In this document: in pieces, positions 24,784-33,297 of the stretch | How the letters are laid out: each line of letters opens with the position of its first letter | How positions within the stretch are numbered: the first letter of the stretch is position 1 | Assembly (NCBI GenBank): GCA_013697365.1 | Contig: JACCXA010000036.1 | Span: 1 to 34,765 of the forward strand | DNA length: 34,765 nt | Direction: 5' to 3' | Source: Chthoniobacterales bacterium | Lineage (GTDB): Bacteria > Verrucomicrobiota > Verrucomicrobiia > Chthoniobacterales > UBA10450 | Made by a program: the position numbers and the translations under genes | The notes under the pieces: model-generated | Databases searched by the model: none | What the model saw: the letters and a program-made list of their open reading frames with translations, nothing else | Told to the model about the DNA's origin: nothing

Positions 24784-25854
24784 TCAGGCAGCCGCGTCGC
24801 GTTTTTCGACCGTCGCACGCTCGCGCTCAAGCTGGAACCGCGGCGTGAGGCCGCGCGACGCGAAGTCGCTCACTGCGTCTCGGATCGCATCGTCGAGCGG
24901 GACCGTCTGGTAACCTAACTCCCGTTCGGCTTTCTCGTTGCTTGAGAAATGCGGCCCGCGGGACATCTGGACCGACTCGCGAGTTACAAACGGTTCCCAA
25001 TTTGGTGAAAGACCGGCCATTGTCTCGCTCACGCACGCCGTTGCATAGCTCAGCCAATGCGGCGCATGAAAACGGGGAGCGCGGTGCTTCCCGAACGGCT
25101 CCAGCCGTTGCAGGAATTCACCTAACCACAGGTTGGTCCCGCCAAGCAAATAGCGTTCGCCCTTCCCTCCGCGCACCATCGCCAGGAGATGGCCGAGCGC
25201 GCACTGCCGCACGTCGACGAAGTTTAATCCCGTCCGAGCAAGCATGGGGATTTTTCCCTTCAGAAACTGCACGATAATCATTCCGGTCGGCGTCGGCTTC
25301 AGATCGTGCGGCCCGATCGGCGCCGTTGGGAGCGCGGTCACAATCGGCCATCCGGCCTCCGCTCGCTTTTGCGCTTCCAGGAAAGCTTCAAACTTGGAGC
25401 GCTTGTAGGGCCCCTTGAACGACGACGGCAAAGCGAGCCGCGATTCTACGGCGAGGTGCCCTGACGTCCCGCGCGCCAGGATACCTGTCGTACTTGTGTA
25501 AAGAATGCCCTCAACTTCAGCCTGCCTCGCGGCTTCCAGCAGGTTGATCGTCCCCTGCACGTTGTTCGCGAAGATCTCCTGCTGATCTCGCGCCCAAAAT
25601 CGATAGTCGCCCGCGACATGAAAAACGTAGCGGATCCCCCGCATCGCCTCGTCGAGCGTTTCACGCCGCAGCAGATCACCTTCGAACCACTCGAAAGTTT
25701 CTTCCCTCCGCGCCGTCGTCGGGCGGACAAGAGCACGCACCTGCGCACCCGCCTTCGTTAGGATGTCGGCGACATGCCAGCCGATAAAACCGGATGCGCC
25801 GGTCACGAGAACTTGTTGGCCCCTGAAAAAGGCGGCGATGTCGGGCGGGATCAT
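24784..25854 (-). CDS. NAD-dependent epimerase, HpnA-like (hopanoid-associated sugar epimerase type)
   Basis: VLVTGASGFIGWHVADIL, YKRSKFEAF, PTAPIGPHDLKPTPTGMIIVQFLKG, GLNFVDVRQCALGHLLA, GERYLLGGTNL. Confidence 0.85.
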   Translation of the reverse strand: MIPPDIAAFFRGQQVLVTGASGFIGWHVADILTKAGAQVRALVRPTTARREETFEWFEGDLLRRETLDEAMRGIRYVFHVAGDYRFWARDQQEIFANNVQGTINLLEAARQAEVEGILYTSTTGILARGTSGHLAVESRLALPSSFKGPYKRSKFEAFLEAQKRAEAGWPIVTALPTAPIGPHDLKPTPTGMIIVQFLKGKIPMLARTGLNFVDVRQCALGHLLAMVRGGKGERYLLGGTNLWLGEFLQRLEPFGKHRAPRFHAPHWLSYATACVSETMAGLSPNWEPFVTRESVQMSRGPHFSSNEKAERELGYQTVPLDDAIRDAVSDFASRGLTPRFQLERERATVEKRDAAA

Positions 25855-26591
25855 GAGAGGCGTTGGATTGCAGGGAGCACCACGTCCCGCGCGTGGGGTA
25901 GGTCGTTCGGGAAATCAATCTCAGTCCAGGGGATGCCCGTCACATCTTCGTAGCCGAAACGATCCGCCAAAACGAGCGCCCGCAGCACGTCATCGTAGGA
26001 ATCGCTGATTTCCTTCCCGGCGCTGCGTCGAGTCGTTTCGTCGATCAACATAGGCAGATCCTCGGGAGCGATCTTGAAAAACCCGATCGACTCGCCCACC
26101 AAATCGGCTTGCCCGGTCCACTTCTTCCGAAACTCAAACGGGCGCCCCGCTTTCACGGGTACCAAGACCGGATCATCATCGTTCGTGGAGTATTCCCGAT
26201 CCAGCAGCAGCGCTGTCGGAGCGCGGCATCGGATGAGCTGCTCGAGCATCTGGCTGGGATAAAGCACGTCGGCATCCATCAACAAAATCGGCTCGCGGCC
26301 TCCTTCAATCTCCGGCAGCGCCGTCGCCAGAGTGAGCGCGCTGCCCTCCTGAAACCGCTGGTTAACCAGCTCGCGGATACCTAATTCGTGGCGTGCGCTG
26401 ATGGCGGGAAGAAAGCGCGCGATCTGCGCACGCAGATGACCCGTGACGAGAACCACATCCTGCACGCCGACTTCGCGCAGCCGCAGCGCGTGCCACTCAA
26501 GCAAAGTGCGTCCGCCGAATTCGAGCAGAATCTTCGGAAAATTTGCACCGAGGCGAACTCCCTTCCCGGCCGCGCAGATGATGGCCTTCAA
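25851..26591 (-). CDS. sugar-phosphate / phosphoalcohol nucleotidyltransferase
   Basis: LKAIICAAGKGVRLGANFPKILLEFGGRTLLEWHALRL and ILLMDADVLY; TTG start at 26591 overlaps the TGA of the upstream gene (TTGA). Confidence 0.85.
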   Translation of the reverse strand: MKAIICAAGKGVRLGANFPKILLEFGGRTLLEWHALRLREVGVQDVVLVTGHLRAQIARFLPAISARHELGIRELVNQRFQEGSALTLATALPEIEGGREPILLMDADVLYPSQMLEQLIRCRAPTALLLDREYSTNDDDPVLVPVKAGRPFEFRKKWTGQADLVGESIGFFKIAPEDLPMLIDETTRRSAGKEISDSYDDVLRALVLADRFGYEDVTGIPWTEIDFPNDLPHARDVVLPAIQRLS

Positions 26592-27583
26592 ACCGACGCT
26601 TCCCCGATTGGTGCCATCCGATCCCGGAAGGACAAACCGGCGGCGTAAAGGAACACTCCGCCGATTGCCGCATAAACAACATCGCGCCCGCGGCGGATGA
26701 TTGCGTACGAGACGCCAAGCGCGGGCGGCAAGCCAAACAAGTAGCATAGAAACACGATCCCGCTCTCCTGCACGCCGAGCGCTCCCGGCACGAAAATGCC
26801 CAGCGCTTTGGCGACGCCGATGAAGGCCTCCACCGCCAGTGCCTGACTGAAATCGATCGGCATTCCGAGGAGATGCGAGACGAGCAGGATTTCGATTGTA
26901 TCGGCCATCCAGCCACCGAAGTAGGTCGCGGTGCTGAGTAGGAAATGCCCACGGTCCTTGCGGTAAAACTCGAAGATGCGATCGTCAAGTTGCCGCAGGC
27001 TCTCGGCACGCTTCCTCAAAGCACGAAGGGGCAAGAGGGCGGCGAGGGTGCGGAACATCCCGCGCTGCTGAAGCCAGAAGAGAGAAGCCACGATGCACGT
27101 CGCCATTGCAGTGATGGCCAGCATCCCAACACGCGCCGGGGATTGCTCCGGGAGATTGGCTGCGCCTGCGACTGCTCCGATCGCGATGAACGCCACTTGC
27201 GCGAAAACCTGTGCCGTCTTGCCCGCGACGACGCTTGACGCACCCTGCACCCTCGGCACGCCGAGTTTGTGCAGCAGATGCACCTTCGTTGCCTCGCCCC
27301 CGATGTAAGCCGAAGGCAGAACCGCGCTGATCGCCTCGCCCGCCCAGCGAATGCGCACGAGCGTGCCAAAGCCAACGCCGGGCACGCCAATCTCGCCGAA
27401 CGCAAATCGCCAGCCCAGCGTGTCGAGCAGGTAAACGAGGGCGAACGGCAGCAAGACTACCGGCGCGAACCAGCCAAGATTCTGGAACGCACGCACGATT
27501 TCGCCGACTCCCGCGCGCTGGACGAACCAGACGAAAAGAGCCAGCCCGACCGCTGCGACGAAAAGCTTGAACGCTAATTTCAT
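26588..27583 (-). CDS. lysylphosphatidylglycerol synthase TM / UPF0104 (HpnL-like) membrane protein
   Basis: MKLAFKLFVAAVGLALFVWFVQRAGVGEI...; SAVLPSAYIGGEATKVHLLHKLGVPRVQGASSVVAGKTAQV; GIFVPGALGVQESGIVFL. Confidence 0.85.
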   Translation of the reverse strand: MKLAFKLFVAAVGLALFVWFVQRAGVGEIVRAFQNLGWFAPVVLLPFALVYLLDTLGWRFAFGEIGVPGVGFGTLVRIRWAGEAISAVLPSAYIGGEATKVHLLHKLGVPRVQGASSVVAGKTAQVFAQVAFIAIGAVAGAANLPEQSPARVGMLAITAMATCIVASLFWLQQRGMFRTLAALLPLRALRKRAESLRQLDDRIFEFYRKDRGHFLLSTATYFGGWMADTIEILLVSHLLGMPIDFSQALAVEAFIGVAKALGIFVPGALGVQESGIVFLCYLFGLPPALGVSYAIIRRGRDVVYAAIGGVFLYAAGLSFRDRMAPIGEASV

Positions 27584-27736: not shown

Positions 27737-28810
27737 TCATGTCGAATGATGCACGGTCGCCGAGATTGAGCGGTGCGCGGGTCCCCAGAGCAGCAGAAGC
27801 AGCGCAATCCAAAAAATGTGGATGCCGATCCCAGCCATCCAGAGAAACAGATCGATCCGGCCAAAGATCGCGAGTGCTAAGAGCAGAACCGAAAAATCGC
27901 GGTTCGCCGTCGCCTCGAGGAGCCTGTTAAGGAGGGGACTGCGGCGCGCCGCTGGCCGCCGCAAAGCGCGGATAATCACCGCAAAAGAAAGCAGGACGCC
28001 CAGTGCTGCACTCGCGCCGAGCGCCGTGGCGGGGACTGAAGAGTTCGTGCGAGCGACTCCGATTCCGAGGGCCGCAAAAACACAGAAGTGCACGACCTGA
28101 TCGCCAGCCAAGTCGAGCCATTTGCCCAGGCGCGACTGTTTGAAGAGCACACGGGCCAATTCGCCGTCCACGCAGTCGATCACGGCGGAAAACTGAAAGA
28201 CGAGTGCGCCGAGCACAAAATACCCGCGGGCGAAAAACCAGGCCGAAACCACGCCGATCACAATCGAGACAAAGGAGACCTGGTTCGGAGAAACCGACGT
28301 GTGGACGAGAAGTTTCGAGAGCAAACGCCCAAGCGGCCGGTTGAAAAAACGGTCGACCAAGCCGTCGGCTGGACTGCTGAGCGACGCCCAAAACTTGCGC
28401 TCGGCGACACGCGCAGAAACTTCGTTCACGATGGCAACCGCGAGACCATGAGCGACAATCACCGGTCCTGCTTTCGGCGTTGTCACCCTTACTGGCAGGA
28501 GAGAGCCATTGGCAGCGGCGAGCTGCCCGCCGTGTTCGATCACTCGCTCGAGATCGCTCGGCTCGACCAAAACGCCGCCGTCAATCAAGAGCACGGGATC
28601 GGGAAATGCAGGAAGGGCTGGAACGCTTGACGTTTCTATCTGCAACTCTTCCGCACGTGCGAGCCTCGGCGTCGCGTCGGAAACGATGGTGATCGGACCG
28701 CAGTAAGCGCGGTGCGCGCTGACGACGAGACGGTCGAGGACGGTGAGTCCCGCGATTTTCAGACTGCCGGTCTTGGCGTCGCACACCAGGACGGCGGGAA
28801 TTTTTTTCAC
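27737..28810 (-). CDS. CDP-alcohol phosphatidyltransferase family protein with N-terminal nucleotidyltransferase-like region
   Basis: DCVDGELARVLFKQSRLGKWLDLAGD matches D-x2-DG-x2-AR-x8-G-x3-D-x3-D; GTG start 28810 (GTGAAAAAAATTCCC) proposed instead of track start 28966. Confidence 0.88.
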   Translation of the reverse strand: MKKIPAVLVCDAKTGSLKIAGLTVLDRLVVSAHRAYCGPITIVSDATPRLARAEELQIETSSVPALPAFPDPVLLIDGGVLVEPSDLERVIEHGGQLAAANGSLLPVRVTTPKAGPVIVAHGLAVAIVNEVSARVAERKFWASLSSPADGLVDRFFNRPLGRLLSKLLVHTSVSPNQVSFVSIVIGVVSAWFFARGYFVLGALVFQFSAVIDCVDGELARVLFKQSRLGKWLDLAGDQVVHFCVFAALGIGVARTNSSVPATALGASAALGVLLSFAVIIRALRRPAARRSPLLNRLLEATANRDFSVLLLALAIFGRIDLFLWMAGIGIHIFWIALLLLLWGPAHRSISATVHHST

Positions 28811-28820
28811 CGCCCTGCGC

Positions 28821-29262
28821 TCAACGGGCGCGTCTAGTTTGTAACGGGTTGCGCCAGCGTAGTTCCGGGAAACGAGCAAAGTCCGTGTCAGCGGAATAGA
28901 GTTCGCAGTCATGTTCAATCGCGAGAGCCGCGAGGTGCGCGCCCATGACCAAGTTTCTCCCGGCATTCACTGCCCGCAGCGTGCGCTGCAGGATTGGCCA
29001 GTGCATTTCCCCAGCCCGGACGATCCGCACACTCGGTAGCGCCAGCCAATCATTAGTCGCAGCGATTGCCTGCTGGATCGAAACCGGCCACGCCATGATC
29101 CATCGGCTTACGCAGAGGCGAAGGAAGCCTGGGGGTAGCCCACGTAAGAGCGACGGGCTCAACGCTGGAAAAACGTTCTTGTAGCCACGCAGAGGCGGCT
29201 TCGTGTTGCGGCGCGTCCCGGTTGTAGGCATATACGAGCAGATTGGTGTCCGGCAAAACCAC
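28821..29262 (-). pseudogene. PIN-domain (VapC-like) protein, frameshifted around 29131-29140
   Basis: Frame A VVLPDTNLLVYAYNRDAPQHEAASAWLQERFSSVEPVALTW; frame B GFLRLCVSRW...NLVMGAHLAALAIEHDCELYSADTDFARFPELRWRNPL. Confidence 0.8.
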
Positions 29263-29376: not shown

Positions 29377-30993
29377 GTGAATTACCGAACAAAATCAACC
29401 CGTTTCCGCGAGCTGTTGCGCTCCAGTCAGCTTGAATTCTTAATGGAAGCGCACAACGGCCTGAGTGCGCGCATCGTAGAAGAGGCGGGCTTCCGCGGGA
29501 TTTGGGCGAGCGGGCTTTCCATTTCGGCCGCGCTAGGGGTGCGAGATAACAACGAGGCGAGCTGGACGCAGGTGCTGGAGGTGGTCGAGTTCATGAGCGA
29601 CGCCACGAGCATTCCGATCCTGCTCGATGCCGACACCGGCTACGGAAACTTCAACAACATGCGGCGCCTCGTAAAGAAACTGGAGCAACGCGGCGTCGCG
29701 GCGGTTTGCATCGAGGACAAGCTTTTCCCGAAGACGAACTCGTTTATCAACAGTGAGCGCCAGCCGCTCGCCGATCTCGAAGAGTTCGCGGGCAAGATCA
29801 AGGCGGTGAAAGAAGCGCAGAGCGATCCGGATTTTTGCCTGGTCGCGCGCCTGGAAGGTTTCATTGCGGGCTGGGGACTGGACGAAATGCTGCGCCGCGC
29901 GGAAGCATGCCACGCCGCCGGGGCTGATGCTCTCTTGATTCACAGCAGAAAATCGACGCCGGACCAAGTCCTGGCTTTCGCGGAGGCGTGGAAGGGGCAC
30001 TGTCCGCTTGTCCTCGTCCCGACGACCTACTACAGCACGCCCGTGGAAGTGTTCGAGCAAGCCGGAATTGATCTCGTCATCTGGGCGAACCACAACGTGC
30101 GTAGCTCGATTGCGACCATGCAGGAGACGAGCCGTCGGATCTTTGAAGAGCGGTCGGTGCAAAGCGTGGAAGACGCGATCGCGCCGGTGAAGGAAGTCTT
30201 CCGGTTGCAGAACGCCGACGAGTTAATGGAAGCAGAGGAGCGCTACCTGCCGAAGGCTTCCGATTCTGCGCGGGCCATTATCCTCGCAGCCAGTCGCGGC
30301 AGCGAGATGGGTGATGTGACCGCGGGCATCCCGAAAACGATGGTGCCAATCGGCAACACTCCTCTGCTGCACAAACTGGTGGCGCAGTTCCGGGCCTCGG
30401 GTGTTCGCCGCATTGTAGTGATCCGCGGATACGCTGCCGGCAAAGTGCACGCGCCGGATGTTGAATTTGTCGAGAACGCCGAGTTCGAGGGCACCGGTGA
30501 ATTGCTTTCGTTGAGCAAAGCCGTCGAATATCTCGAGGGTGATGTCGTTCTTTCCTTCGGCGACATTCTTTTCCGCAAGCACATTCTGAACAATCTCCTC
30601 GCGGAGCCGCACGACATCGTGATCGCCGTGGATGCAGCCTGGCACCGCCGGCACCGTGCCGCGGGATATGTCGACTACGTCACCGCGACCCGGCCCTACT
30701 CTTTGCGATACGATGAAGACGAGGCATTTCTCACCGCCGCGAGTCCAGACTTGGAGGAGGACGTTATTCACGGCGAATGGATCGGGCTGATCAAAACCAA
30801 CGGGCGTGGCTCTGAGATCATCACAGCAGCGCTGGCCGAGCTTTCCAAGCGCGGCGACTTCAAAAAGTTACGGTTCGATGATTTGTTCAAGCACCTGATT
30901 GCAAAGCAACAACGCGTGCACGTCCTCTACATCACCGGCCATTGGCTGGATGTGGATGATCTCGACGACCTCGCGCGTGCGCAGGCTTTTTGA
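29377..30993 (+). CDS. aepX: phosphoenolpyruvate mutase fused to nucleotidyltransferase (PntC-like)
   Basis: PEP mutase motif [23 protein letters not shown]-terminal NTase [35 protein letters not shown]. Confidence 0.93.
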
Positions 30994-30994
30994 A

Positions 30995-32143
30995 GTGATC
31001 AGCGCCGCCTCGTTCGTCGAACACCTGCGGGGCCTTGGCTACTCGCAATACGCCGGCGTCCCCTGCTCCTTCTTCACGTCGTTTCTCAACTATGTGATCA
31101 ACGACCCGACGCTCGACTACGTTGGCGCGACGAGCGAAGGCGAAGCGATCGGGATTACGATGGGCGCCGCGTTAGCCGGCCGCAAAACCGTCACGATGTG
31201 CCAGAACTCCGGGCTTGGAAACATGGTCAACCCGCTCACCTCGCTCAATTATCCGTTTCGCATTCCCACCCTGCTCATCGTGACGTGGCGCGGTCAGCCC
31301 GGCGTGAAGGACGAACCGCAGCACGAGCAGATGGGCCGGATCACGCACCAGCTCCTCGACACCCTCGAGATCCCGTGGCTGCCTTTTCCGCAGGAGAAAG
31401 CGGAGATCGCCGGGGTTATGGCTCAAGCGGAAGCAAGCATGCTGGAACGGCAGCGGCCCTTCGCACTCGTGATGCCAAAGGATTCGATCGCCCTGCATTC
31501 GCTTTCCGGACGATCGAAACCGACCCGCGTTGCGGCCGATCGGCGCGAAAGTTCCCCTGCGGACGAAAAGCTCACGCGCACGGAGGCACTCGATGTGATT
31601 CTCGATTCCCTGCGCGGCGACGAAGCGATCATCGCCACGACCGGCAAGACAGGGCGGGAATTGTTTACTCTCTCGGATCGGCCGAACCATCTCTACGTTG
31701 TCGGCGGCATGGGCACGGCGTCCGCCATCGGTTTCGGTATTGCGCACGCCTTGCCGCGACAGCCCGTGGTCGTGCTTGACGGCGACGGCGCCGCGCTCAT
31801 GAAGATGGGTTCGCTCGCCACGATCGGGTTTTATCAGCCGGAGAATTTCCTCCACATCATCCTCGACAACGAAGCGCACGACTCCACTGGCGGACAACAA
31901 ACGGCCTCGCCCACCGTGCAATTCGCGGAAGTCGCGGCTGCGGCTAACTATCGCTCCGCGTTCGCAGTCGAGCGGCGTGACGACATTCGCGAAGCCGTCG
32001 AGACACTGCGCGAGCGTCAGGGACCGTCGCTCCTGCATGTGAAGATTCGCCCCGGCTCTCCGGAAAAGCTCGGCCGACCGACGGTGAAGCCACACGAGGT
32101 GAAGGAACGATTCGCCACGTTCCTGCGCGGCGACGCGCCATGA
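30995..32143 (+). CDS. aepY: phosphonopyruvate decarboxylase
   Basis: GVPCSFFTSFLNYV, ATSEGEAIGITMGAALAGRKTVTMCQNSGLGNMVNPLTSL, TPP motif GDGAALMKMGSLATIGFYQPENFLHIILDN; GTG 30995, 1 bp after aepX stop. Confidence 0.94.
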   Translation: MISAASFVEHLRGLGYSQYAGVPCSFFTSFLNYVINDPTLDYVGATSEGEAIGITMGAALAGRKTVTMCQNSGLGNMVNPLTSLNYPFRIPTLLIVTWRGQPGVKDEPQHEQMGRITHQLLDTLEIPWLPFPQEKAEIAGVMAQAEASMLERQRPFALVMPKDSIALHSLSGRSKPTRVAADRRESSPADEKLTRTEALDVILDSLRGDEAIIATTGKTGRELFTLSDRPNHLYVVGGMGTASAIGFGIAHALPRQPVVVLDGDGAALMKMGSLATIGFYQPENFLHIILDNEAHDSTGGQQTASPTVQFAEVAAAANYRSAFAVERRDDIREAVETLRERQGPSLLHVKIRPGSPEKLGRPTVKPHEVKERFATFLRGDAP

Positions 32144-33297
32144 CAGATCCACTTCTCTTCACGCCTGGCCCGCTGAGCACGAGCGCCACCGTCAAAGCGG
32201 CGATGCAGCGCGACCTCGGTTCGCGCGACACGGATTTCATTACCCTCGTCGCTGAGATTCGTCGTGAATTGCTGCAGATCGCGGGCGTGTCACAAGAGAG
32301 CGGGTATGAAGCGGTCCTGGTGCAGGGCAGCGGCACGTTTGCGGTTGAGGCGGTGCTCTCGTCAGTGCTTCCCCCAGATGGCCGCTTGTTGGTGCTCGCG
32401 AACGGCGCCTACGGCGAACGAATGCTGCAAATCGCGGAGCGTCTGAGAATCCCAGCCCGCGTGCAACGATGGCCGGAGAACGAGTCGCCCGACGCAGCGA
32501 CTGTCGCGCTGTTGTTATCCGAGATGCCACGGCCGACGCACGTGGCCATTGTCCATCTCGAAACGACGACCGGCATTCTCAACCCGATTGATGAGATCGG
32601 TCAGATCGTGCGAGAACGCGGTTGCCGTTTCATCGTCGACGCGATGAGCAGCTTTGGCGGTGTGCCGCTCGATCTTGGAATCTTGCAAGCCGACTACCTC
32701 GTCTCTTCCGCCAATAAATGTCTGGAAGGCGTGCCCGGTTTCTCGTTCGTGATCGCGAAGCGAGAAGCGCTCGAAGGGACGAGGGGATACGCGCGCAGCG
32801 TGAGTTTCGATTTGCTCGCGCAGTGGCAAGGCCTCGAGCGCAATGGGCAGTTCCGTTTCACACCGCCAACGCATGCGCTGCTCGGCTTTGCGCAGGCGCT
32901 GAAAGAACTGCGCGACGAAGGCGGGGTCGCGGGACGGGCTTTACGCTATTGCGCCAATCATGAGACTTTGGTGGCAGCAATGCGCGCACTTGGTTTCCGG
33001 GAGTATCTGCAACCGGAACAAGAGAGCGACATCATTACGTCTTTCCGATATCTGGCAGATCCCGACTTCGTATTTGAAGAGTTCTATCGACGCCTCGCGG
33101 CGAAAGGATTTGTGATTTATCCCGGCAAGGTCAGCCATGCCGAGTGTTTTCGCATCGGGACCATCGGCCACATTTCTGCCGGGGATGTGAAGCTTCTCGT
33201 CTCCGCCATCGCGAATGTCCTAAGTGAGTTGGGCGTGCGGGTTTCCCGGAGCGATTCGTGCCGAGCTGTCGCCGGAGACGCCGGCCGCTCCGCATAA
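32140..33297 (+). CDS. phnW: 2-aminoethylphosphonate--pyruvate transaminase
   Basis: LLFTPGPLSTSATVKAAMQRDLGSRDTDF, VDAMSSFGGVPLDL, SSANKCLEGVPGFSFVIAKRE; ATGA overlap with aepY. Confidence 0.94.
   Translation: MTDPLLFTPGPLSTSATVKAAMQRDLGSRDTDFITLVAEIRRELLQIAGVSQESGYEAVLVQGSGTFAVEAVLSSVLPPDGRLLVLANGAYGERMLQIAERLRIPARVQRWPENESPDAATVALLLSEMPRPTHVAIVHLETTTGILNPIDEIGQIVRERGCRFIVDAMSSFGGVPLDLGILQADYLVSSANKCLEGVPGFSFVIAKREALEGTRGYARSVSFDLLAQWQGLERNGQFRFTPPTHALLGFAQALKELRDEGGVAGRALRYCANHETLVAAMRALGFREYLQPEQESDIITSFRYLADPDFVFEEFYRRLAAKGFVIYPGKVSHAECFRIGTIGHISAGDVKLLVSAIANVLSELGVRVSRSDSCRAVAGDAGRSA

Follow-up and report, generated by a model that had tools for sequence, protein, structure and literature searches.

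Why does a membrane transferase encoded next to genes for the synthesis of 2-aminoethylphosphonate (AEP) carry what appears to be a dead nucleotidyltransferase (NTase) domain, and what group might it transfer? The question is raised by a gene for a CDP-alcohol phosphotransferase (CDP-AP) in a Chthoniobacterales (Verrucomicrobiota) MAG, situated in the window, i.e. the whole stretch of 34,765 nt that was analysed. The genes of the locus are the following.

24784..25854, (-): HpnA-like NAD-dependent epimerase, conserved in a locus from the same genus (L034/L062); TIGR03466 just below cut-off
25851..26591, (-): free-standing NTase of the IPCT/LicC-like type in which GxGxR, PK, DxD and ExD are all intact; motifs and profile matches
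26588..27583, (-): HpnL-like membrane protein (LPG_synthase_TM), which comes second in the conserved unit; PF03706, TIGR03476 below cut-off, conserved neighbour
27737..28810, (-): CDP-AP with a degenerate NTase-like N-terminal domain (N-domain), 357 aa, GTG start; ORF, PF01066, start of L034
28821-29231, (-): ORF resembling a PIN domain (borderline Pfam score), located between the CDP-AP gene and pepM and ending just upstream of the former
29377..30993, (+): PEP mutase (PepM) fused to an NTP_transf_3 domain, with S-R-G-S-E for G-x-G-x-R; TIGR02320 above cut-off, motif
30995..32143, (+): phosphonopyruvate decarboxylase (Ppd), start approximate; TIGR03297 above cut-off
32140..33297, (+): AEP aminotransferase (AEPT/PhnW-like); TIGR02326 and TIGR03301 above cut-off

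The reading frame of the CDP-AP gene stays open up to an ATG at 28966. The GTG at 28810, where an earlier note on this DNA had placed the start, is nevertheless taken as correct, because the closest homologue, from a Chthoniobacterales MAG (L034/L005, JACDCC010000373.1; 64-65% identity), has a GTG at the equivalent place and because the PIN-like ORF fills positions 28821-29231. A homologue with the same 64-65% identity is present in genome G001. PF01066 (CDP-OH_P_transf) matches residues 174-340 of the deduced product (E 2.7e-12, 47.8 bits vs a cut-off of 22), and every position of the signature D212-x2-D215-G216-x2-A219-R220-x8-G229-x3-D233-x3-D237 is present, as the earlier note had claimed for the C-terminal part. 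With about six hydrophobic segments, the protein has this signature in a multi-helix membrane domain, as in the members of PF01066. The parts of the product that are discussed below are these.

28376..28810, (-): degenerate NTase-like N-domain, residues 1-145; profile-profile match to the operon NTase
28751..28783, (-): shortened first loop, residues 10-20 (CDAKTGSLKIA), at the GxGxR...PK site of NTases; alignments, hhalign
28730..28732, (-): Arg27 (LDR motif), kept without exception in both families with the degenerate domain and found also in the archaeal protein AF2299
28574..28582, (-): D77-G78-G79, what is left of the D-x-D metal site of NTases, varying among homologues; alignment, hhalign
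28142..28144, (-): Phe223, located in the TM2-TM3 loop at the position of the docking residue of AF2299; alignment
28100..28177, (-): complete CDP-AP signature, residues 212-237; alignment

A search at E<1e-60 found the CDP-AP gene, with its N-domain kept, in 13 of 286 genomes of the class Verrucomicrobiia. Orthologues with the same N-domain are spread over at least nine families, which rules out a pseudogene or a frameshift. A scan of genome contigs added one more homologue, and a similar scan of viral contigs found no further one. In the orthologue of genome G175 (L056:8989-10110, (-)) three signature acids are lost (D212G, D233E, D237N), and this CDP-AP may itself be dead; the same genome is without pepM and without an orthologue of the NTase.

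A Pfam search of the N-domain in 15 homologues gave no family above threshold. Comparison by hhalign of a 14-sequence N-domain profile with the intact operon NTase, however, gave a score of 42.7 (E 5e-6, probability 86%), whereas none of 200 column-shuffled profiles exceeded 23.0. The similarity is above chance, as would be expected from a homologue with an NTase fold. The match begins at LKIAGLTVLDRL, opposite LEFGGRTLLEWH of the NTase, and holds PVLLIDGGVLVEPSDLERVI and PILLMDADVLYPSQMLEQLI in register. It is very improbable that the N-domain is an unrelated alpha/beta domain with no NTase relative: besides the lack of a Pfam match, this reading has in its favour that the AlphaFold models, from a single sequence and from two sequences, were too poor for a fold comparison (pLDDT 41.9 and 36.2) and that the N-domain profile by itself found no solved NTase in the PDB, its one hit being a chance match to a coat protein, but it does not account for the score against shuffles or for loop and metal segments that stay in register.

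The same alignments suggest what was lost. Between the first strand and the point of the match the N-domain is about eight residues shorter than the NTase, with AKTGS alone opposite GKGVRLGANFPK, and neither the R nor the PK of the GXG(T/S)RX4-8PK loop of active NTases appears in the window protein or its orthologues. The metal-binding Asp pair is lost in 14/14 homologues, with D-G-G in the window, T-G-G in the nearest homologue and variable residues elsewhere, and the second metal motif (E/D-x-D; WTEIDFP in the NTase) has no counterpart in the N-domain alignment. In Tde-PntC, alanine at the consensus Arg or Lys leaves <10% activity (PMC6697681). Because of this, and of the missing loop and metal motifs, cytidylyltransferase activity of the N-domain is very unlikely. 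The reading of this domain as NTase-like but degenerate, with a seemingly dead activation module, which the earlier note had proposed from the missing GxGxR, is thus well supported by these comparisons.

Further CDP-APs of the Chthoniobacterales carry a more diverged version of the domain (ADESAxWxVAGLRQLDR), whose profile matches the domain of the window family with a score of 42.5 (100 shuffles, <=17.0); its match to the NTase is no longer found. Some of these are encoded in sphingolipid-type clusters of the order (L065, 4644-12873; L066; L096), and bear the same degenerate domain. Such clusters, the surroundings of which were examined in L065 and L096 with functional names given by resemblance and Pfam class, comprise an SPT-like aminotransferase, a FA hydroxylase, a GNAT, an SDR, two CDP-APs and a LicC-like NTase. 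Could the domain, devoid of catalysis, still bind CTP, CMP or CMP-AEP and so act in sensing or allosteric control? Its retention in at least nine families and its conserved residues, R27 (invariant), L25 and D86, would agree with such a role, but the loop that binds CTP is missing, as are both metal sites, most of the conserved residues fall within the hydrophobic LxxLDR segment and not at the aligned substrate positions, and the paralogue domains have drifted until no NTase match is left; we consider a sensor unlikely.

The intact NTase lies two genes downstream of the CDP-AP gene. The earlier note had counted two intact NTase domains in the locus, which holds for the product of 25851-26591, with its canonical motifs, and not for the domain fused to PepM, which has Glu where Arg is expected. 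Among the seven PepM proteins with a fused domain in the class Verrucomicrobiia (window 30247-30993; L053, L055, L062, L067, L072 and L100), [SA]-x-G-x-E is found in six and PK is kept in six, the domain of G269 (L100) being more degraded than the others; a GHWLDVD-type acid motif is present in 4/4 aligned, and the PepM part of the fusion proteins is canonical. Judged from these motifs, activity of the PepM-fused domain is uncertain, and the locus is therefore credited with one canonical NTase and not two. Both fused NTase modules might even be pseudoenzymes, with the small NTase as the sole working cytidylyltransferase, recruited by the dead CDP-AP domain through pairing and handing the CMP-headgroup straight on to the active site in the membrane, an idea that we regard as decidedly doubtful.

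Throughout the class the CDP-AP gene is part of a conserved unit with the genes for the HpnL-like protein (PF03706) and an intact NTase, and many orthologue loci keep this gene order. Among the 286 genomes there are 13 with an orthologue of the CDP-AP, 11 with one of the NTase and nine with a PepM above cut-off. The NTase orthologue occurs in 9/13 CDP-AP genomes (expected 0.5; Fisher 1.2e-12, kinship ignored) and pepM in 5/13, from five different families (expected 0.41; Fisher 1e-5, kinship likewise ignored). The PepM-Ppd-AEPT operon adjoins the unit, in divergent orientation, in the window and in G001, G300 and G085, and PepM is encoded elsewhere in the genome in G236 and G166. The conserved partners of the CDP-AP are the HpnL-like protein and the separate NTase, PepM being present only sometimes. 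Since pepM is missing from 8/13 genomes with a CDP-AP orthologue, strict phosphonate specificity of the unit is ruled out and AEP is not its general headgroup.

Other neighbours fit a lipid role. A Pfam-confirmed gene for an MlaA lipoprotein adjoins the CDP-AP/HpnL pair in G175 (L056:5090-6991, (-)), and an MlaA-like gene, named by resemblance, adjoins the CDP-AP gene in G291 (L057:7146-9062, (+)). In G085 a TauD-family dioxygenase (PF02668; L055:6497-7525, (-)), possibly an AEP hydroxylase, is encoded between the HpnL-like gene and an NTase, beside pepM, and a gene for a 2OG oxygenase lies ahead of the CDP-AP gene in G236; we infer that these oxygenases could hydroxylate a headgroup.

The best solved match of the family profile is AF2299 of Archaeoglobus fulgidus (4o6m; E 9e-30), and a profile of the two families reaches E 7.5e-36 in an alignment that also extends over the linker into the last part of the N-domain. 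AF2299 and AfDIPPS, not the PIP synthases, are the closest solved relatives of the window protein. This bears on a reading in which the donor is CDP-diacylglycerol, the protein acts, as PIP synthase does, as a phosphatidyltransferase, and the genes around pepM belong to a separate phosphonoglycan pathway. Most genomes with the unit are without pepM, the six hydrophobic segments are as in PIP synthases, and AF2299 itself was suggested to act in PI-phosphate synthesis (PMC8633023). However, the sequence is much closer to AF2299/DIPPS, a dedicated NTase is conserved with the CDP-AP, and pepM co-occurs in five families, so that we regard this reading as rather unlikely. A small soluble donor is favoured instead, because of the closeness to AF2299/DIPPS and the dedicated NTase.

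We propose that the protein would belong to the AF2299/DIPPS type of CDP-alcohol phosphotransferases, with six helices and with an N-terminal cytidylyltransferase domain that has turned into a pseudoenzyme, its headgroup being activated in trans by the separate NTase; we give this model as a whole a probability of about 0.55. The intact NTase two genes downstream would convert CTP and a headgroup phosph(on)ate to a CMP-headgroup, the dead N-domain would dock on the membrane part, and the membrane domain would pass the headgroup on from its CMP ester, with release of CMP; the acceptor would most probably be a lipid alcohol. The HpnL-like protein may then carry the product across the membrane. 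In the window locus the headgroup would most likely be AEP, supplied by PepM-Ppd-AEPT, with CMP-AEP as donor, and genomes with the same unit and no pepM would use another CMP-headgroup. The occurrence of paralogues with the degenerate domain in sphingolipid-type clusters also speaks for this model. The CDP-AP thus probably attaches phosphonate-type headgroups to lipids, although the number of hydrophobic segments, about six, is a point against a lipid acceptor, because the known enzymes with lipid acceptors usually have extra transmembrane helices (PMC4634129).

A structural role for the dead domain is suggested by the position at which it would dock. The cytidylyltransferase-like domain has hydrophobic pockets that, both in AF2299 itself and in engineered chimeras, enclose two residues of the TM2-TM3 loop (PMC4634129); from aligned sequences, we placed these docking residues at the L-x-F that follows the AR of the signature. 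The docking position is aromatic in 31/31 automatically scored homologues that bear the domain (F in 18, Y in 10, H in three), and is also F in L060, whose domain was missed by the motif scan. In the five complete domain-less members of the sphingolipid-type subfamily (L010, L014, L018, L019 and L021) it is N, N, N, K and G, respectively. This aromatic pattern lends support, short of proof, to a docked, structural N-domain. The correlation may rest on one single loss event, since the five domain-less paralogues come from related genera. The idea that a separate nearby gene encodes the domain for these paralogues found no support, as no split N-domain was found as a separate gene near them.

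How bacteria attach cytidylyl-activated AEP to lipids or glycans is largely uncharacterised (PMC6697681). The locus offers a compact, testable candidate for this transfer step: next to the AEP genes it encodes a single NTase, a single membrane transferase and a possible flippase. CDP-APs with and without a cytidylyltransferase-like domain also make a natural comparison, which could explain why AF2299-type proteins retain an apparently non-catalytic domain.

Among known systems, AF0263 has an active NTase domain. This IPCT-DIPPS (PDB 4mnd, NF041135) has the same order of NTase followed by CDP-AP, and the halves of its profile match two genes of the operon, 221-400 the CDP-AP and 2-218 the separate NTase, which bears out the IPCT-DIPPS-like layout described in the earlier note. 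It differs in that the window has a degenerate NTase domain in the fused position and encodes its intact NTase separately: an active IPCT domain is absent from the CDP-AP chain, the loop and metal sites of which are degenerate and the NF041135 score of which, 76.9 bits, is far under the cut-off of 580. PntC/LicC cytidylyltransferases and their Ppm fusions are similar in that PF12804 NTases are tied to PepM, and some published clusters contain both a fused and a separate NTase (PMC6697681); the passages of that study that were consulted describe no CDP-AP with a dead NTase domain, and the PepM-fused domain of the window is without the Arg that Tde-PntC needs for more than 10% of its activity.

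The nearest system is AF2299 (PDB 4o6m, 4o6n, 4q7c), likewise a six-helix CDP-AP after a cytidylyltransferase-like domain, with a phenylalanine at the docking position (ARLKF). It is archaeal, its N-domain segment alone is sub-threshold by sequence (-3.2 bits), and we know of no phosphonate context for it. Its residues 37-62, HEIYGEKLLGLTLRERIEKTLQRAGF, align with DETAELKVAALTLLDRLVVALHRAGC, with the same short loop in register with the window family and no space for GxGxR/PK, the GLTL helix and the E/D-R pair; this position of the match is considered right because the N-terminal domain of AF2299 has been described as a cytidylyltransferase-like domain (PMC4634129), and the polar donor pocket of the same enzyme accommodates CDP-glycerol (PMC4634129). 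The first loop of AF2299 seems to be shortened in the same way as that of the window protein. Judged from this, CDP-APs that carry a non-canonical NTase-like domain are not new. Because AF2299 appears to share the layout as well, the CDP-AP of the window is an informative variant and not a new kind of enzyme.
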